Origin: Clostridia bacterium
Lineage (GTDB): Bacteria > Bacillota > Peptococcia > DRI-13 > SM3-B62
Direction of reading: 5' to 3'
Length of the DNA: 64,000 nucleotides
Assembly: GCA_018432615.1 (NCBI GenBank)
Contig: JAHDSQ010000012.1
Span: 1-64,000 of the forward strand
The position numbers were made by a program, and so were the translations under genes. This document shows, piece by piece, positions 6,050 through 51,274 of this stretch (positions are counted from its first letter, which is position 1; each line of letters starts with the position of its first letter). The notes beneath the pieces are model-generated. The model made no database searches, was not told the origin of the DNA, and saw only the letters and a list, made by a program, of their open reading frames with translations.

Positions 6050-7438
6050 CTATCCGATAGTAATTCTTTCCTCCGGCAGTTTTATATGGTTGGTGCCGTT
6101 AGATTTGTTTTTGTTTTGGCTGAGAGCAAAAACTAAGGTAAGGGGACCGACTCTGCCGCAAAACATTGTAAGAATGATAGCCGCTTTTCCGATTCCGGTA
6201 AGATAAGGGGTTATGCCCATTGACAATCCCACCGTTCCGAAAGCAGATACGGTTTCGAACAACAGTGTCATAAAGTCACTGTTTTCTGTAATTGAAAGGA
6301 TAAAGACAATCATAAGGATGAGAGCAAAGGCTGAGAATACAATTATAACTGCTCTGCGGATGACTTCTTGAGATATGGCTCTGTTTTCATAAGAGACCTG
6401 ATTGTTACCGCGGAAAGTACACTTTAGGTATAATACAATTGAAGCAAAGGTGGTTGTTTTGATACCACCCCCTGTTGAGCCCGGCGATGCACCGATAAAC
6501 ATTAGCAGAAGGAGAAGGATATGAGTAGAGTTACAAAGACCCGAGGTGTCAATTGTATTAAAACCGGCGGTGCGGGCGGTAACCGCTTGAAACAGCGAGG
6601 CTAATATCTTGTTTGAAGAATCCAATCCGGCTAAGGTAGCCGGATTAGTGTGTTCAAGGAGAAAAACGAGAATTGTACCGGAGACTATGAGAATCAGGGA
6701 GGTTTGAATGACCATTTTTGAATGTAGGGTCAATCGTTTTCCCTGGTGCGAATACAAATCGGATAAGACCGTAAACCCCAAACCTCCGGTAATTATTAAT
6801 AGCATCATTGTGATGTTGGTAATATAATCTGCGGTATAGGAAGTAAGACTTGAATAGTTCCCGAAGAGATCAAAGCCGGCATTGTTGAAGCCTGAGGCCG
6901 CATGGAATATTCCAAAGTATAATGATTTACCCCATCCTAGTTCAGAAGACCAATTGAAAGCAAAGACGAGGGCGGCAATTCCCTCGATAAGGAGGGATAT
7001 TTTTATAATATATTTTGTAAGCCGTACAACGCCCTGGAGGGAGAGTTGACTCAAAGCTTCCTGCAACAGCAGACGCTCTTTCAGCGTTATCTTCTTACCC
7101 ATAATAATAGCCAAGAGGCTGGCAAAGGTCATAAAGCCGATTCCGCCTATTTGAATTAAAACCAAAATAACTACTTGCCCAAAGACTGTAAAGGTGGTTC
7201 CGGTATCAACAACAGTTAAACCTGTAACACAGACGGCTGAAGCTGCCGTGAAAATAGCATCAAGTAAAGGCAAACCTCCGTCTTTGACAGTGGCCTGGGG
7301 CAAGGATAGCATTATTGCACCGCAGATTATCAGGGCGGCGAAACCAAGGACGAGAACCTGAGGTGGATCAAACTTTACAGAACCGTTTTTGCCAGGTTTG
7401 TTTGTGTCTTCATGTGAAAGGTCAATAACTTCCTTCAT
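6050..7438 (-). CDS. ktrB: Potassium uptake channel subunit, KtrB/TrkH family
   Basis: A 462-residue multi-pass membrane protein of the TrkH/TrkG/KtrB family, with repeated pore loops such as the AVCVTGLTVVDTG, ASGFNNAGFDLFG, TARTAGFNTID and SAFGTVGLSMG segments, whose glycines form the K+ selectivity filter. It imports K+ together with the KtrA ring. The start at 7438 is chosen because GAGGGTGA lies just upstream; a longer reading frame up to 7501 lacks a ribosome site. The gene lies 134 bases downstream of the response regulator gene on the same strand. Confidence 0.92.
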   Translation of the reverse strand: MKEVIDLSHEDTNKPGKNGSVKFDPPQVLVLGFAALIICGAIMLSLPQATVKDGGLPLLDAIFTAASAVCVTGLTVVDTGTTFTVFGQVVILVLIQIGGIGFMTFASLLAIIMGKKITLKERLLLQEALSQLSLQGVVRLTKYIIKISLLIEGIAALVFAFNWSSELGWGKSLYFGIFHAASGFNNAGFDLFGNYSSLTSYTADYITNITMMLLIITGGLGFTVLSDLYSHQGKRLTLHSKMVIQTSLILIVSGTILVFLLEHTNPATLAGLDSSNKILASLFQAVTARTAGFNTIDTSGLCNSTHILLLLLMFIGASPGSTGGGIKTTTFASIVLYLKCTFRGNNQVSYENRAISQEVIRRAVIIVFSAFALILMIVFILSITENSDFMTLLFETVSAFGTVGLSMGITPYLTGIGKAAIILTMFCGRVGPLTLVFALSQNKNKSNGTNHIKLPEERITIG

Positions 7439-20294: not shown

Positions 20295-20296
20295 TA

Positions 20297-20376
20297 CTGT
20301 GTACGAAAGCTATGAAGCGCAGGGAAATCTGGGCACCTGATCTGTGCGGAGCCAGTGGTGCAACCGGTCGTATAAA
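20297..20376 (+). promoter_or_regulatory. Class II c-di-GMP riboswitch (ON-type architecture)
   Basis: The core matches the known class II c-di-GMP aptamer: CTGGGCACCTGA (20329-20340), then AGCCAGTGGTGCAACCGG (20350-20367), giving the GGGCAC/GTGGTGC pairing and the conserved GTGCAACCG 3' pseudoknot strand. TGTACG (20300-20305 region) can pair with CGTATA (20369-20374) to close the aptamer. That same 3' strand is the start of the terminator at 20367-20404, so ligand binding should block termination and switch expression on. Class assignment is by recall of the reference aptamer, not a covariance search. Confidence 0.85.
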
Positions 20377-20404
20377 CTGTGTTTATGCGGCTTTTTGTTT
20401 TTTT
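20367..20404 (+). terminator. Riboswitch-controlled terminator
   Basis: GTCGTATAAAC pairs with GTTTATGCGGC around a TGT loop (11 bp, two G-T pairs), followed by TTTTTGTTTTTTT. It shares CGTATA with the aptamer closing stem, so the two folds exclude each other. Confidence 0.85.
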
Positions 20405-20487
20405 AGGTGTTATTAGACAAGCTTAGATCAGCACGAGGCGGTAGGACTTATAATAAGAAAAAATTATATATAAGGAGGAAATTAAGA

Positions 20488-23400
20488 ATGTTGGGGAATC
20501 ATAGAAAGTTGCTATCTATTCTGGTATTGTTTGCCATGATGTTCACAATGATAATTCCCGTAACCGTATTTGCAGAGGATATACCCGTAATTGTTCCGGG
20601 AGAAGGAGAAGGCGATGACGGGTCGGAAGGAAAGGAAGGAGAATCCGCTGAAACGATTAATATTGCAACACTCGAAGGGGTGACTGTCCCGGTGACAGGC
20701 GAGACTCCGGTAACAGAAATAACAGAAACTGATGAATACACGGGAGAGGTTACCTGGGAACCGGCAGATGATGTGTTTGCCGCCGAAACGGAGTATACGG
20801 CAACGATTAGTCTTACTTCCAAAGAAGGGTTTACATTGACCGGTGTATCTGCCAATTTCTTCACGGTAGATGGAGCAACGGAAACGACAAATGATGCAAA
20901 CTTGGGAGTTGTCACAGCAGTTTTTCCTGTGACAGAGCCTGAATCAAAAGCCAAAGACGGGTTAAAGGAAAAGCCTATGTCTTATGTTTTACGTACTGGA
21001 CCGGCGACTCTGGAGGTAGGGGAAGGTGAATCTATCCAAGATGCCATTAATGCGGCATCAGCTGGGGATACCATTGAGGTGTCTGCCGGGGTGTATGTTG
21101 AGGATGTGGTTGTAAATAATAAAGTGACAATCATAGGTGTTGATGGTGCTGACAAAACCAAAATTGTTGCAACGAATGGGAATTCATGTCCGTTGACTTT
21201 CAATGCAAATGATGCCACCGTAAGAGGGTTTACACTAACCCACAGATATACGGACGAAGAGCTTAGTAATTGGGTTGATGGAAATTTTAATAAAAACAAA
21301 GGTGTTGATTTCAGTCAGGGAGTCACAGGAAATACATTGGCGAATTGTGTTGTCACGCTCAATAGAAATGGCATTTATCTAAACAATTGTCAAGGCAATA
21401 CTATCACGAATAACACGATTTATAATAACAGAACCGGCATTAATATGACAAACAATGTTAACGGTACGGTGATAACCGGAAACACGATATCCGAAAACTG
21501 GACGTTAGGGCTAGTGTTCTACTCCCTTGGTAGTGATACGGATTTTACAAGCGTTACGGTTTTCGAGAACACCTTTGATAATAACTGGTATTCGGAGATA
21601 TTGATTAAGGATGCAGGGGGATCTTCCGGAACTTTGAATGTAACAAATAATACTTTTACGGACAATACGGTTACATATACAGACTTAGCGGATGGAAGTC
21701 TCAATGAGCCGGGCTTTGATACGCAAAAACCAAATGTTGATGGGATAGGCGGCGATGCAACTAAGCCTGAAGATGAGTTGCCAACCTTGCGGATATATAA
21801 GAGTGGCGACGCAAAACTTCAATATGATAACAAGACATTATTTGTTGGCAATCACGAAGGGCAATACACTACATATACCGCGATTCAGTCGGCAATTGAC
21901 GCGGCATCGGCTGGGGACACCATTATAGTGGCCGCAGGCCTATACAACGAGGTAATTTCAATTACCAAGCCGCTGACCTTATTGGGCGCAACCCATGGCG
22001 TAGATAAAAGGGAATATAATGTAAATTCGGCTGGAACCTGGGATCAATCGGGTGAGAGCGTTATTCAACATCCGGACTCGAATCCTTCCGGTGATTGTGT
22101 TGTGGATATTAATGGAACTAGTGATGTGACTTTTGATGGGTTTGTGGTGCAGGTACTGAACGCTAACGGAAACGCTCTGTCCTCGTTAGTCAGGGTTACT
22201 ACAAGAAAAGCAACTTCTTCTATTGCGAACATACAGGTAATCAACAATATCATCGGCCCGTTTACTAAGGTAGGAGAACAAGACGGTACGCATGGACGGA
22301 TGGGCCTGTATATTGTCAATGATCCATACAACAGTGCTTTAGGTGTTAAGAACAGCACCTTTGCCTACAATAAGATATTTGGAGCCGAAGGTAACGGCAA
22401 CAATGTTTTTGTGTGGTCCGCATATCACTCTTATGGTGCAGCCGGACCTAGCCCAATGGATGGGACAGTTATCGAGTATAACGATATTTTCGGTTCTCAC
22501 CGTTCCGGCATTGAGACGGCGGGAGGATTTAAGGATTTAGTTATCCGACATAACACTATCCATGATAACGGGTGTGGAGATACTTCGGGCAACCTTAAAT
22601 ATGGCAACGGTATTATACTGTTAAGGGGTAGCAGTGATGTAGAAAATGGTAAAAGTGGTATAGCGAATCCGTTGGCATATGGCCCGGAAAATCTAACCAT
22701 CCGGAATAACGAGATTTACAACAACGCAAAGCATGGTATCTATTCAGGTCCGGTAATAAATAGACTTACAATTGAAGACAACAATATTTATACTAACGGT
22801 GAGGATGGAGTAATTGTAGATTTGGACGGTACATATCACGGTTTTGCTCTTTATAACCGGGCCTCAAATGTTAAGGTTAACAATAATACCATAGAAGGAA
22901 ACGGCAGTAATGGTGTTAAGGTACAAGGTACTCCAACAAATGATTTTGTAATTGATGCTGAAAAGAACTATTGGGGCGAAGCCAGCGGCCCGACACACGA
23001 GTCTAACCCCGAAGGAAGCGGTGATGCCGTTGTAGGCGTTGTGACCTTTGATCCTTGGTACACCGGTTCTACAAGGGATACGCTGGCATCAAATAAAAAA
23101 GTATTTAACCAGACAAAGATGGAGTTCTATAACACCATCAAGGATGCTATCGACGATGCAGATTCCGGTGATACCATCAGTCTGGCTACCGGTACGTATA
23201 CGGAAGGGAAGATCATCATTGATAAGGATTTGACAGTTATAGGAGAGGATAAAAACACTACAATTATCCAACCGGCGGAAGATATAATCGGAAAGAATCA
23301 TGAAGATGACAGTGCCTGGTTTGTTGTAAACCCCAAAGTTACCTTCAATTTGAGTAATGTTACTTTAGACGGCATTGGTAATGTAGCAGATGTTGGGAAA

Positions 23401-25344
23401 AATATTAAAGTTGCCATCATGTCTCATGGCAGCGGCCTAATCGAGAATAACATTATAAAGAACATTTACGGCGGTCATAAGTATTATGGTATTGGTATTC
23501 AACTGTATGGTTCCGATATGACCGTACGAGGTAATAGTTTCAACAATATCCAACGCATTGGTGTTTTTTCCGGTCACGGATCTCAGGCTGTAATTGAGAA
23601 CAACACCTATGTGGGTAAAGGTGATGGAGATTACCTTGATTATGCCTTCGAAGTAGGACGAGGCGGCCAAGCTACCATTCATGGTAATAATATTTCCGGC
23701 AATAAAGGAGTAGCAACAATTGATGACTCCACTTCAGCAGGAATCCTTGTGACCAGTTATCATGATTATAATGGGAATCCTGTTAAAGCGACAATAACCG
23801 GCAATACTATCACTGATTGCTATACGGCGGTTTGTGTAGGATACGATGAAAATGATAGTAGTGTAGTTACAGTGACAGAAAATAATCTGACAGGGAACGA
23901 AATGGGTGTTGAGAGTACAAATTCAGAGGTTAATGCCACCAAAAACTGGTGGGGTACTGCCGTAAAAGCCGACATCCAGGCCTTGGTGAAAGGCAAAGTA
24001 AGTTTTGATCCTTGGTATGTCGATGCGGGTAAGACACGCCTTATCAACAATGGGTACAATTTAACCACAACCAGCAAGAGCGAGACGAGTGTTGTTCTGA
24101 GTTGGAACGGGGTAGACGGAGTTGACGGATATAACGTTTATCGTGGGAACGAGAAACTTAACGACACGCTTCTGACAGCTACAACCTACACGGCAAGCGG
24201 CCTTTCCGCGGAAACGACATACAGCTTCAATTTAAAAGTTGTGATAGATGGCAAAGAACATAGTATCAATGATTCTGTTTTATCAGTCACCACAGACAGT
24301 TATAGCAGTTCTGAAGATGATTCCAGCTCCAGCGGAGGAACCATACCACCGGCAGGGACACCGGCTCCGGCCGCCTTGGAAGATCCGGTAACGGAAGATG
24401 ATAAGAAATTAAATGATAGTCTTACCAACACCGGAGAAGCTAAGTTGAATCTGGCAGGGGACAGCGACGGCAAGGCAAATCTTTCTACCAATATTGTTAC
24501 TCAACTGGCTCAGGAGAATCAGCCGTTGACTGTCGAGAGCACAGGTGTAGGTCTAACATTTGCTCCCACCTCCTTAGTTACTCCTGAGTTGACGGAGGCT
24601 TTGGATAAAGAAGGGGCTACGGTGGAAATAGGGGCCAGGCAGGTAACGGAAACGGAGAAAGAAGAGATTATTGCCGGTGCCGCTTTAGGGCAGAGTACCG
24701 GGGTATTTGAGGTAGGAGGAGTCATAGTTGACTTATCGGCTCAGGTCACATCCGACGATGGTAGTACAAAAATAGAAGGTTTCGCTGAACCTGTTGCGGT
24801 GACGATTGATTTATCGGGACTGGATTTGACCCCTGAACAGATTAGCGAGCTTTCGGGAGTGCGTTTTGAAAAAGATGAGGATGGCAATGTTGTACCGGTT
24901 CCGCTGGGTGGAAGCTATGACCCGGAGACCAAGACATTTACCTTCTATACCACGAAATTCAGTCTCTATTCGGTATTGCAGGTGAAGGATCTGGTCACGG
25001 TGGAATTAGCTATAGGGAACAGCAATTCAAAAGTTAATGGTAAAGATAAGAGTGTTGACGTTCCTCCGACAATAATCAATAACCGTACTATGGTGCCGTT
25101 GCGCTTTATCGGTGAGGCACTGGGCGCGGAGTTTGACTGGGACGCAAAAACCAGAACAGTAACCGTTGTCTTGGGTGAAAAAGAGCTTAAGCTTGTCATT
25201 GATAAGCTCACACCGGGCCTTGATGTACCGGCGACGATTGTAAACGGAAGGACGTTAGTTCCGGTACGGTATGTTTCGGAAAACTTTGGGGCTAATGTGA
25301 CCTGGTTCCCGACTGAGAGAAAGGTCTCGATAGTAAAAAAATAG
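20488..25344 (+). CDS. Secreted c-di-GMP-regulated beta-helix surface protein (putative adhesin)
   Basis: A 1618-residue exported protein. Signal peptide 1-31 (LLSILVLFAMMFTMIIPVTVFA). An acidic stretch and an Ig-like module (about 60-150) follow. Three tandem right-handed beta-helix modules each open with the same motif (IQDAINAASAGDTI, IQSAIDAASAGDTI, IKDAIDDADSGDTI) and contain many NxI/NNT PbH1 repeats; two end KN[YW]WG...FDPWY. An FN3 domain (about 1190-1270), a Ser/Pro linker (1272-1300) with a Pro-Pro bond at 1287-1288, a beta-rich domain, then two copper-amine-oxidase-like repeats (NNRTMVPLRFIGE, NGRTLVPVRYVSE) that probably hold it on the wall. No sortase motif. AAGGAGG precedes ATG 20488. 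Adhesion is inferred from architecture and regulation; polysaccharide lyase activity is possible. Confidence 0.85.
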   Translation: MLGNHRKLLSILVLFAMMFTMIIPVTVFAEDIPVIVPGEGEGDDGSEGKEGESAETINIATLEGVTVPVTGETPVTEITETDEYTGEVTWEPADDVFAAETEYTATISLTSKEGFTLTGVSANFFTVDGATETTNDANLGVVTAVFPVTEPESKAKDGLKEKPMSYVLRTGPATLEVGEGESIQDAINAASAGDTIEVSAGVYVEDVVVNNKVTIIGVDGADKTKIVATNGNSCPLTFNANDATVRGFTLTHRYTDEELSNWVDGNFNKNKGVDFSQGVTGNTLANCVVTLNRNGIYLNNCQGNTITNNTIYNNRTGINMTNNVNGTVITGNTISENWTLGLVFYSLGSDTDFTSVTVFENTFDNNWYSEILIKDAGGSSGTLNVTNNTFTDNTVTYTDLADGSLNEPGFDTQKPNVDGIGGDATKPEDELPTLRIYKSGDAKLQYDNKTLFVGNHEGQYTTYTAIQSAIDAASAGDTIIVAAGLYNEVISITKPLTLLGATHGVDKREYNVNSAGTWDQSGESVIQHPDSNPSGDCVVDINGTSDVTFDGFVVQVLNANGNALSSLVRVTTRKATSSIANIQVINNIIGPFTKVGEQDGTHGRMGLYIVNDPYNSALGVKNSTFAYNKIFGAEGNGNNVFVWSAYHSYGAAGPSPMDGTVIEYNDIFGSHRSGIETAGGFKDLVIRHNTIHDNGCGDTSGNLKYGNGIILLRGSSDVENGKSGIANPLAYGPENLTIRNNEIYNNAKHGIYSGPVINRLTIEDNNIYTNGEDGVIVDLDGTYHGFALYNRASNVKVNNNTIEGNGSNGVKVQGTPTNDFVIDAEKNYWGEASGPTHESNPEGSGDAVVGVVTFDPWYTGSTRDTLASNKKVFNQTKMEFYNTIKDAIDDADSGDTISLATGTYTEGKIIIDKDLTVIGEDKNTTIIQPAEDIIGKNHEDDSAWFVVNPKVTFNLSNVTLDGIGNVADVGKNIKVAIMSHGSGLIENNIIKNIYGGHKYYGIGIQLYGSDMTVRGNSFNNIQRIGVFSGHGSQAVIENNTYVGKGDGDYLDYAFEVGRGGQATIHGNNISGNKGVATIDDSTSAGILVTSYHDYNGNPVKATITGNTITDCYTAVCVGYDENDSSVVTVTENNLTGNEMGVESTNSEVNATKNWWGTAVKADIQALVKGKVSFDPWYVDAGKTRLINNGYNLTTTSKSETSVVLSWNGVDGVDGYNVYRGNEKLNDTLLTATTYTASGLSAETTYSFNLKVVIDGKEHSINDSVLSVTTDSYSSSEDDSSSSGGTIPPAGTPAPAALEDPVTEDDKKLNDSLTNTGEAKLNLAGDSDGKANLSTNIVTQLAQENQPLTVESTGVGLTFAPTSLVTPELTEALDKEGATVEIGARQVTETEKEEIIAGAALGQSTGVFEVGGVIVDLSAQVTSDDGSTKIEGFAEPVAVTIDLSGLDLTPEQISELSGVRFEKDEDGNVVPVPLGGSYDPETKTFTFYTTKFSLYSVLQVKDLVTVELAIGNSNSKVNGKDKSVDVPPTIINNRTMVPLRFIGEALGAEFDWDAKTRTVTVVLGEKELKLVIDKLTPGLDVPATIVNGRTLVPVRYVSENFGANVTWFPTERKVSIVKK

Positions 25345-26031: not shown

Positions 26032-26055
26032 TTGCAAATAGGCAGAAAATATAAT
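26032..26055 (+). promoter_or_regulatory. Promoter of the protease riboswitch transcript
   Basis: TTGCAA (26032-26037) and TATAAT (26050-26055) are 12 bases apart, but a second overlapping TATAAT (26055-26060) gives an ideal 17-base spacing. The transcript would start near 26067, just before the first GEMM aptamer. Confidence 0.6.
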
Positions 26056-26096
26056 ATAATAGTCCCATAGAAAGACAATAGGTCTTCAACGAAAAA

Positions 26097-26171
26097 GGCA
26101 AACCCGGTGAAAGCCGGGGACGCAAAGCCGCGAGTCTAAAGCCTGTAAAGGTCATGATAGTCGGGTTGCCG
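26097..26171 (+). promoter_or_regulatory. Class I c-di-GMP riboswitch (GEMM), copy 1
   Basis: All GEMM-I signature blocks are present: GGCAAACCCGGTGAAAGCC with its GAAA tetraloop, GGGGACGCAAAGCC, the AGTCTAAAG tetraloop-receptor side, and the 3' ATGATAGTCGGGTTGCC. It differs from copy 2 at only 4 of 74 positions and all four keep pairing. The 3' strand GGGTTGCC (26163-26170) is complementary to GGCAACCC (26201-26208) in the terminator that follows, so ligand binding would release the terminator: an OFF switch (inference from fold logic). Confidence 0.95.
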
Positions 26172-26192
26172 TGAATTGGGTGATTTAAAACC

Positions 26193-26226
26193 CCTACTTT
26201 GGCAACCCCAAAGTAGGTTTTTTTTT
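26193..26226 (+). terminator. Terminator controlled by GEMM copy 1
   Basis: CCTACTTTGG pairs with CCAAAGTAGG around CAACC, followed by nine T residues. Its loop-side strand can instead pair with the 3' strand of the aptamer. It lies between the two riboswitch copies, so copy 1 alone has a terminator. Confidence 0.9.
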
Positions 26227-26254
26227 GCAAAGATAAATTTTAATAATTCTATCA

Positions 26255-26299
26255 AGTGCCGTTTGCCTGGGGTAATCCCTCGGCAGTAAATGACACTTG
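26255..26299 (+). other. Long imperfect hairpin between the two riboswitches
   Basis: AAGTGCCGTTTGC at 26255 pairs with GTAAATGACACTT ending at 26299 (about 12 pairs including G-T pairs, one mismatch) around a GGGGTAATCCCTC-containing loop. No T tract follows. It may insulate the two aptamers or be the trace of an older terminator; role unknown. Confidence 0.45.
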
Positions 26300-26304
26300 A
26301 AAAA

Positions 26305-26378
26305 GGCAAACTCGGTGAAAGCCGGGGACGCAAAGCCGCGAGTCTAAAGTCTGTAAAGACCATGATAGTCGGGTTGCC
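26305..26378 (+). promoter_or_regulatory. Class I c-di-GMP riboswitch (GEMM), copy 2
   Basis: A second complete GEMM-I aptamer, 74 bases, 53 bases upstream of the protease start. Compared with copy 1 the differences are C to T in the first stem (C-G becomes T-G) and three changes in the second stem (GCCT/AGGT becomes GTCT/AGAC). No T-rich terminator follows. A 7-bp hairpin (ACGCTCC/GGGGCGT, 26386-26408) lies between it and the GGGGGTGGAG ribosome site, so control here may be translational. Confidence 0.93.
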
Positions 26379-26430
26379 AAGTATCAACGCTCCGTATGAT
26401 ATGGGGCGTGCTGCCAGAGGGGGTGGAGTA

Positions 26431-27120
26431 ATGTCCAGGAAGGCTGCACTTTTAGTTGTCTCTTTTTTCTTATTGATTTGTTTTGGTGCAAATGCCGTTT
26501 CGGCGGCAGAAAACATCAAAGTCTTCAATTGTGAAGAAAGCAGAATGGAGCTTTTTGTCGATTCCAAGGACAAGGTCTTGCTTGCCAAAGAATGGTATGA
26601 CTATGAGTTTGAAATAAGCACAGTGAATAACATTGGTGCATTAGAAATGAAGGCTGTAGACAACCAAAGCTATCTTGAGGCGCTGGAAGAAGTCGAATTT
26701 CCTTTAGCTGCTGTAGGATCTTATAAAATCTACTTTCTTGATTATAAATTGAAGGACTATTTTTCCACCCTGGCTCTCAGTTTTAAGGATGGAAGTGTCG
26801 TGGTCTTCGGGAATTATTACGACTTGCCCCAGGAGAAAATACACCGACTTGCCGTACATGAATTAGGGCATCAGGTCGATTTTAGTCTAATGGATGAAGA
26901 AAAAAGACATGAGTATAGAAGATTACGAGGACTTGAAAATCAAGAGAAATTTAACGATTACACCCAAGAATATAAAAACAGAGTGCAAGAGATATTTGCT
27001 GAGGATTTTAGAATCCTTTTCGGAGGAGAAAAGGCAAAAAAAGCAGCACATTTGAACGGTGATCTGATAAGCCCCGCTCAGGTCCCCGGTCTTAGAGAGT
27101 TTTTTATATCCCTTCTTTAA
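26431..27120 (+). CDS. Secreted zinc metalloprotease, Pro-Pro endopeptidase-like
   Basis: A 229-residue exported protease of the anthrax-lethal-factor-like (ATLF) fold, closest in plan to clostridial PPEP-1/Zmp1 (about 220 residues). Signal peptide 1-25 (LLICFGANAVSA). HELGHQVD at 143-150 gives zinc ligands His143 and His147 and catalytic Glu144; the third ligand is probably Glu187 in RVQEIFAEDF, with Tyr181 six residues before it (seven in PPEP-1 and lethal factor). Family members cut between two prolines. Two upstream c-di-GMP riboswitches fit the known repression of PPEP-1 by c-di-GMP. ATG 26431 follows GGGGGTGGAG. The Pro-Pro specificity is inferred. Confidence 0.82.
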   Translation: MSRKAALLVVSFFLLICFGANAVSAAENIKVFNCEESRMELFVDSKDKVLLAKEWYDYEFEISTVNNIGALEMKAVDNQSYLEALEEVEFPLAAVGSYKIYFLDYKLKDYFSTLALSFKDGSVVVFGNYYDLPQEKIHRLAVHELGHQVDFSLMDEEKRHEYRRLRGLENQEKFNDYTQEYKNRVQEIFAEDFRILFGGEKAKKAAHLNGDLISPAQVPGLREFFISLL

Positions 27121-50625: not shown

Positions 50626-50702
50626 CGGGGCATAGCGCAGTTTGGTAGCGCACCTGGTTTGGGACCAGGGGGTCGGGGGTTCAAATCCCTCTGCCCCGAC
50701 CA
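50626..50702 (+). tRNA. tRNA-Pro(TGG)
   Basis: Acceptor CGGGGCA/TGCCCCG, anticodon loop TTTGGGA with anticodon TGG, T-loop TTCAAAT, CCA encoded. First in the cluster. Confidence 0.95.
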
Positions 50703-50720
50703 TTGCTTCTAATGATACAT

Positions 50721-50795
50721 GGCCCGGTGGTCAAGTGGTTAAGACACGGCCCTTTCAAGGCTGTAACACGGGTTCGACTCCCGTCCGGGTCACCA
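50721..50795 (+). tRNA. tRNA-Glu(TTC)
   Basis: Acceptor GGCCCGG/CCGGGTC, anticodon loop CTTTCAA with anticodon TTC, T-loop TTCGACT, CCA encoded. Confidence 0.95.
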
Positions 50796-50802
50796 TATTA
50801 GC

Positions 50803-50879
50803 GGAGCTGTGGTGTAGTGGCCTAACATGCCTGCCTGTCACGCAGGAGATCGCGAGTTCGACTCTCGTCAGCTCCGCCA
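50803..50879 (+). tRNA. tRNA-Asp(GTC)
   Basis: Acceptor GGAGCTG/CAGCTCC, anticodon loop CTGTCAC with anticodon GTC, CCA encoded. Confidence 0.95.
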
Positions 50880-50886
50880 TAAAATT

Positions 50887-50962
50887 GCCGACGTAGCTCA
50901 ATTGGCAGAGCAGCTGATTTGTAATCAGCAGGTTGCGGGTTCGAGTCCCATCGTCGGCTCCA
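50887..50962 (+). tRNA. tRNA-Thr(TGT)
   Basis: Acceptor GCCGACG/CGTCGGC, anticodon loop TTTGTAA with anticodon TGT, T-loop TTCGAGT, CCA encoded. Confidence 0.95.
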
Positions 50963-50988
50963 TACTAATTATTCACAAGTCAAAATAT

Positions 50989-51074
50989 GGAGGGATTCCC
51001 GAGTTGGCCAAAGGGGGCAGACTGTAAATCTGCTGGCACTGCCTTCGAAGGTTCGAATCCTTCTCCCTCCACCA
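50989..51074 (+). tRNA. tRNA-Tyr(GTA)
   Basis: A class II tRNA with a long variable arm; acceptor GGAGGGA/TCCCTCC, anticodon stem GCAGA/TCTGC with loop CTGTAAA, anticodon GTA, CCA encoded. Confidence 0.95.
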
Positions 51075-51080
51075 TTTTAT

Positions 51081-51157
51081 TGGGGTGTAGCCAAGTCTGG
51101 TAAGGCAACGGACTTTGACTCCGTCATGCGTTGGTTCGAATCCAGCCACCCCAGCCA
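51081..51157 (+). tRNA. tRNA-Gln(TTG)
   Basis: Acceptor TGGGGTG/CACCCCA, anticodon loop CTTTGAC with anticodon TTG, T-loop TTCGAAT, CCA encoded. Confidence 0.95.
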
Positions 51158-51187
51158 CTGAAACAAATATTAATTTATTATAAATAT

Positions 51188-51274
51188 GCGGCTGTGGCGG
51201 AATTGGCAGACGCGCTAGATTCAGGTTCTAGTGTTCGCAAGGACGTGGAGGTTCAAGTCCTCTCAGCCGCACCA
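51188..51274 (+). tRNA. tRNA-Leu(CAG)
   Basis: A class II tRNA with a long variable arm; acceptor GCGGCTG/CAGCCGC, anticodon loop TTCAGGT with anticodon CAG, T-loop TTCAAGT, CCA encoded. Last in the cluster. Confidence 0.95.

Follow-up and report, generated by a model that had tools for sequence, protein, structure and literature searches.

The leader of a secreted metalloprotease gene in the window (the whole stretch of DNA that was analysed, 64,000 nucleotides of a Clostridia bacterium contig) is best read as a two-stage OFF switch for c-di-GMP, in which a first c-di-GMP-I (GEMM-I) aptamer would act on transcription and a second, lying closer to the gene, would act on translation; with both stages as described below, we put the probability of this reading at about 0.58. 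The aptamers, the terminators and antiterminators, the hairpin 5′ of the second aptamer (IH), its complementarity to the ribosome site and the recurrence of that complementarity are established by sequence and statistics. The gene and its two aptamers are as follows.

26087 to 26173, + strand: c-di-GMP-I (GEMM-I) aptamer, copy 1 (RF01051, 88.9 bits, E = 2.8e-16)
26295 to 26381, + strand: c-di-GMP-I aptamer, copy 2 (RF01051, 88.4 bits, E = 3.7e-16)
26431 to 27120, + strand: gene for a secreted HELGH zinc metalloprotease of 229 aa, with a weak, sub-threshold match to the ATLF clan (E = 0.003)

The gathering score of RF01051 is 35, both aptamers cover the covariance model end to end (positions 1–87 of 87), and in the covariance-model alignment each copy retains the conserved G of GGCAAA. 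By this whole-aptamer match both copies are members of the c-di-GMP-I riboswitch class, and both are predicted to bind the ligand. The same doublet is present in a separate genome, that of a sister species (G001, locus L005), and is therefore not an assembly artefact. A mobile-element origin of the leader was considered and rejected: nothing matched among phages, and the plasmid matches were partial and no larger than an aptamer. Elsewhere in the window, seven tRNA genes are clustered on the + strand at 50626–51271.

The elements around copy 1 are those of a terminator switch.

26032 to 26060, + strand: promoter-like site TTGCAA-17-TATAAT, identical in the sister species
26163 to 26170, + strand: GGGTTGCC, the 3′ strand of aptamer 1 and the 5′ half of the antiterminator
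26193 to 26226, + strand: intrinsic terminator of copy 1, a 10-bp stem followed by T9
26201 to 26208, + strand: GGCAACCC, the 3′ half of the antiterminator, within the terminator apex

A second promoter was looked for between copy 1 and copy 2 and was not found. Between the window and the sister species the terminator stem shows a double change, A-U to G-C, that retains pairing. The 9-bp antiterminator GGGTTGCC:GGCAACCC is the minimum free energy structure of a transcript lacking the 3′ strand of the terminator, and in the fold of the full-length transcript aptamer 1 and the terminator beat the antiterminator. In a bi-mechanism tandem the first aptamer should control a terminator, and here folding predicts terminator and antiterminator to be mutually exclusive, with the same exchange between them, in three species: that of the window, its sister, and G004, a member of another family. 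The counterparts of the antiterminator 3′ half (GGTAACCC in the sister, CAACCC in G004) keep the pairing. To judge from this anatomy, copy 1 is very probably a transcriptional OFF switch in which the ligand favours termination: when bound, copy 1 would retain GGGTTGCC, allowing the terminator to form and transcription to stop, and when free it would give up GGGTTGCC to GGCAACCC in the terminator apex, leading to read-through. A preliminary description had given copy 1 alone an overlapping terminator; a terminator does follow copy 1 (26193–26217 and T9), and the stretch from copy 2 to the start codon (ATG, 26431) has none, but the stem lies clear of the aptamer and it is the antiterminator that overlaps it.

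Copy 2 is flanked by elements of a different kind.

26252 to 26300, + strand: IH hairpin, 5′ of copy 2, TCAAGTG..CACTTGA, −22.6 kcal/mol
26277 to 26286, + strand: CCCTCGGCAG, a putative anti-SD within the IH 3′ arm, pairing with 26411–26421
26295 to 26299, + strand: ACTTG, 5′ strand of the P1 extension of copy 2, pairing with CAAGT (26378–26382) in predicted state B and alternatively part of IH
26387 to 26409, + strand: H3 hairpin between aptamer 2 and the RBS; a hairpin of lineage-specific sequence stands here in all five loci with this layout
26411 to 26427, + strand: ribosome site CTGCCAGAGGGGGTGGA, with the SD at 26417–26426, sequestered in predicted state B

Only one of 500 shuffles folded as well as IH, and in the sister species, where the hairpin is present with length-compensated changes, 499 of 500 were likewise beaten. 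CCCTCGGCAG is complementary to the SD region CTGCC-A-GAGGG (7 of 500 shuffles as good), and the complementarity of IH to the start-codon region 3′ of aptamer 2 amounts to −41.5 kcal/mol (2 of 500). The whole of IH set against the RBS, with the target ending at AUG+3, did not rise above shuffles (142 of 400 in the window, 249 of 400 in the sister), because G-rich SDs pair readily. Since the IH 3′ arm is complementary to the RBS that lies behind copy 2, the aptamer itself falls within the putative sequestering helix.

Folding the leader gave two states of near-equal energy. Predicted state A has a closed IH and a mostly open SD; in predicted state B, the P1 extension ACTTG/CAAGT is formed, the IH arm lies on the ribosome site and H3 completes a three-way junction. 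The core of aptamer 2 is predicted to be able to form in both. We compared the cost of opening the SD with the P1 extension forced and with IH forced, for five loci and four transcript lengths, and the cost was higher with the P1 extension in 19 of the 20 calculations; for the window transcript to AUG+3 the values were 9.7 and 3.4 kcal/mol, respectively. The corresponding probabilities of an unpaired SD were 0.06 and 0.54 in the window, 0.04 and 0.71 in G153, and 0.02 and 0.52 in G129. The anti-SD helix of the sister is weaker (SD unpaired 0.48 with the P1 extension), and in the longest context the predicted effect on the SD was smaller, being reversed for G195 at AUG+35. Ligand binding to a GEMM-I aptamer stabilizes its P1 side, and, as the SD is costlier to open in these calculations once the P1 extension is in place, translational OFF control is predicted. 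On these folding calculations copy 2 is probably a translational OFF switch working through a 5′ anti-RBS. In the absence of ligand, IH would be closed and would hold the anti-SD, leaving the ribosome site open on the full mRNA; with ligand, copy 2 and its P1 extension would be stabilized and would take the outer strand of IH, and the freed CCCTCGGCAG would pair with CTGCCAGAGGG in the ribosome site, giving a three-way junction of the anti-SD:SD helix, aptamer 2 and H3. In both species the protease frame also extends, without a stop codon, across aptamer 2 as far as an ATG at 26290 (276 aa); this is probably chance, because a good ribosome site is missing there and the signal peptide begins at 26431.

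A phylum-wide scan of 399 genomes for the pattern of an IH outer stem joined to the 5′ end of a GEMM-I aptamer matched four genomes only: that of the window, G153, and G129 and G195, which are two species of one genus. The last three have the same IH outer stem as the window, and each carries a doublet in which copy 1 is followed by a terminator and copy 2 is not; the gene behind it encodes a transglutaminase-like secreted protein. With the sister species, the IH layout is thus found at five loci in three independent lineages (window and sister; G153; G129 and G195). The IH arms and RBSs of G153, G129 and G195 are unlike those of the window, yet they match each other within each locus, as TATCCTTCA/TGAAGGATA in G153 and as about 21 pairs around GGAGGTTAGG in G129. 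In a matrix of IH 3′ arms against ribosome sites, each anti-RBS paired best with the RBS of its own lineage, and the matched assignment was the best of the six permutations (−89.5, against −79.1 or weaker). The case that copy 2 has a platform of its own rests on this recurrence and on the matched anti-RBS/RBS pairs, and not on any one energy. A general rule of a 5′ anti-RBS for GEMM-I riboswitches was rejected, because such complementarity was not general among the 73 loci surveyed. The preliminary description had proposed two serial switches, one transcriptional and one possibly translational, from the position of copy 2 close to the ribosome site; that nearness alone proves nothing, but the proposal itself is the best reading, by way of the IH anti-RBS in three lineages. 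IH, the kind of gene controlled and the oppositely wired c-di-GMP-II riboswitch nearby (below) had escaped that description.

Other arrangements were seen among the remaining loci. G004 has a single GEMM-I copy, followed, after its terminator, by a long hairpin (L010, about 6690–6830) in which AACCCC is complementary to the SD GGGGTT, an anti-SD element with no second aptamer there. The doublets L069 (G014) and L070 (G008) have a second stage different from that of the window: the 3′ strand of copy 2, GCCAGTTA/G, matches a downstream TAACTGGC/CAACTGGC that covaries with it and competes with an SD-hiding hairpin. In L075 and L076 (G028), unlike other doublets, weak GEMM-I matches occur two by two with no spacer, either overlapping or directly adjoining.

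The divergence of the two copies bears on whether both are functional. Their aptamer cores differ at exactly four of 74 positions, all of which keep their pairs, as the preliminary description had counted: the first hairpin has a C-G to U-G change that retains pairing, and GCCU/AGGU becomes GUCU/AGAC, through a change on both sides of one pair and the replacement of a G-U by a G-C. Copy 2 of the sister species has the U-G intermediate GUCU/AGGC, a step between C-G and the U-A of the window, and each aptamer copy differs between the two species at 2 of 74 positions. The C/T difference that distinguishes copy 1 from copy 2 is common to both species, so the duplication is older than their split. 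Divergence of the copies before the split, and the later restoration of a pair via U-G, support constraint on both, and both copies appear constrained; the suggestion that selection has acted on each gains support from the same intermediate and restored pair.

These comparisons bear on the view that copy 1 is the sole regulator, copy 2 being a ligand-binding duplicate that has no platform of its own and IH serving to insulate or stabilize. The lack of a terminator after copy 2 and the sufficiency of a single copy in G004 speak for it, but it is unlikely, given that copy 2 is as constrained as copy 1 and that IH, with its RBS complement, recurs in unrelated lineages. Less probable is a translational ON switch, in which the ligand would disfavour the long anti-SD helix and free the RBS, making copy 2 incoherent with copy 1. 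Because the core of copy 2 can fold while IH is closed, the ligand might be bound and the SD still be free, and a non-canonical, incoherent c-di-GMP-I case, Bc1, has been published (PMC11218506); against this, in each of the five loci the P1 extension and the anti-SD helix belong to one and the same state of the switch, and an ON stage would counter copy 1. An action of IH on transcription or mRNA decay, through pausing or RNase cleavage, rather than on translation, would suit a strong hairpin placed right after a terminator, but it leaves the lineage-specific complementarity to the RBS unexplained and is improbable to a similar degree. Least probable is that the copies are alike through recent duplication or gene conversion and do not function separately, to which the 70/74 identity within the doublet might point: this is largely refuted by the sister sequence, the copies having been distinct before the species split, and the completely different flanking sequences also speak against it; a recent duplication free of constraint was rejected.

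The two-stage OFF reading of the protease leader has a counterpart upstream, about 5 kb before the protease gene with its tandem GEMM-I aptamers.

20296 to 20378, + strand: the genome's single c-di-GMP-II aptamer (RF01786, 63.0 bits, positions 1–84 of 84)
20366 to 20392, + strand: type II terminator of 12 bp, overlapping the 3′ strand of the aptamer and conserved in the sister
20407 to 25344, + strand: surface protein gene, 1645 aa, with a beta-helix, fn3 and two Cu_amine_oxidN1 stalk domains

The aptamer belongs to the c-di-GMP-II class by a whole-aptamer covariance match (gathering score 53.5), and, as the terminator shares its 3′ strand and is conserved in the sister, an ON switch is the natural reading. 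The likely start of the surface protein is ATG 20488. On this scheme the secreted protease would be made at low c-di-GMP, and the c-di-GMP-II riboswitch would turn the large surface protein on at high c-di-GMP. The G001 orthologue of the surface protein (84%) also has a type II aptamer in front of it and stands at the end of a contig, a position compatible with adjacency; G004 encodes the C-terminal portion of a related protein about 5.5 kb upstream of the protease gene. In all three surface proteins the linker leading to the conserved C-terminal region contains Pro-Pro (TIPPAG, TTPPAP and WAPPEEP), within the segments GGTIPPAGTPAPA and, in the sister, VTTPPAPAAL; as a target of the protease this linker is suggestive only. 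The genome has a third GEMM-I aptamer (L003, 1502–1584; G000:C15:37515), for which the c-di-GMP-I-GGC variant RF03167 is the better fit; the gene behind it, too, encodes a surface protein of the Cu_amine_oxidN1 type.

The layout resembles that of Clostridium difficile, in which a type I riboswitch represses the protease PPEP-1 and a type II riboswitch activates its substrate CD2831 (PMC6366702): on the present reading, both have a type I element acting against a secreted zinc protease and a type II element in favour of a surface protein encoded nearby. Here, in contrast, two aptamers make up the type I part, the stalk domains of the surface protein are of the Cu_amine_oxidN1 kind, and the protease cannot be assigned to PPEP by sequence; the likeness of the circuits is one of layout. 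The protease has a signal-peptide-like N-terminus and HELGH at residues 143–147, and it shares secretion and the HEXXH zinc motif with the PPEPs, but it shows no sequence similarity to solved PPEPs; neither the single protein nor a profile found a PPEP or other credible relative among PDB sequences up to E = 10. Structure prediction from two near-identical sequences gave a pLDDT of 35, unusable as a model, and the protease is at most a candidate PPEP. A scan of the genome contigs found the sister species only, and profile searches of the class (46 genomes) and the phylum (399 genomes) yielded just three orthologues, all behind GEMM-I, those of G001 and G004 being 93% and 51% identical, respectively. 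We consider the chances about even that protease and surface protein form an opposed functional unit, in which the protease would act on the surface protein.

Tandem c-di-GMP-I riboswitches are themselves well known, with 347 doublets and 12 triplets counted and a triplet of Bacillus thuringiensis cited (PMC9481103), and doublets are enriched before transglutaminase (COG1305) genes in Bacillota (PMC12452182). At least 10 of the about 14 doublets that we examined have a terminator after copy 1 only; with doublets so common in the literature, the bare arrangement is ordinary. The first unit of a doublet is expected to act on transcription, leaving the second free for either level (PMC12452182), and the sharpened response proposed in the preliminary description agrees with the pseudo-cooperative sharpening already expected of such doublets, and so is not new (PMC9481103). 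As in known tandems, two complete GEMM-I aptamers follow one another ahead of a single gene, and copy 1 has a terminator; the leader differs in a second stage that has no terminator and an anti-RBS hairpin 5′ of the aptamer, and in its target, a secreted metalloprotease. Bi-mechanism tandems in the 2022 survey, whose authors did not evaluate all tandems, were of SAM classes only; SAM-II/SAM-V and related pairs likewise place termination first and ribosome-site access second under one ligand (PMC9481103), whereas here both proposed stages use c-di-GMP-I aptamers. Bc1 of B. thuringiensis also combines transcriptional and translational control by c-di-GMP-I, with the RBS trapped when bound (PMC11218506), but it has a single aptamer, two terminators and a platform on the 3′ side, and its logic is the opposite, incoherent one. 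In the literature covered, mostly that outside subscription, we found no pairing of a c-di-GMP-I riboswitch with a 5′ anti-SD platform.

We therefore offer, as a proposal with somewhat less than an even chance of being right, a recurrent and undescribed platform in which an anti-RBS 5′ of the aptamer is held in a competing hairpin and the aptamer forms one arm of an RBS-hiding three-way junction, giving a translational second stage, joined here to an opposed type II switch that would make protease and surface protein mutually exclusive. If this is right, the leader would join two c-di-GMP-I aptamers in a bi-mechanism tandem, of a sort that the 2022 survey lists for SAM classes only, and platforms 5′ of the aptamer would be missed by searches restricted to sequence downstream of aptamers. 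The type II ON switch nearby suggests that the shed-or-stick logic of C. difficile, with protease off and adhesin on at high c-di-GMP, may also operate in Bacillota that are only distantly related, do not seem to be pathogens and have unrelated surface proteins, where it would be testable outside a pathogen.
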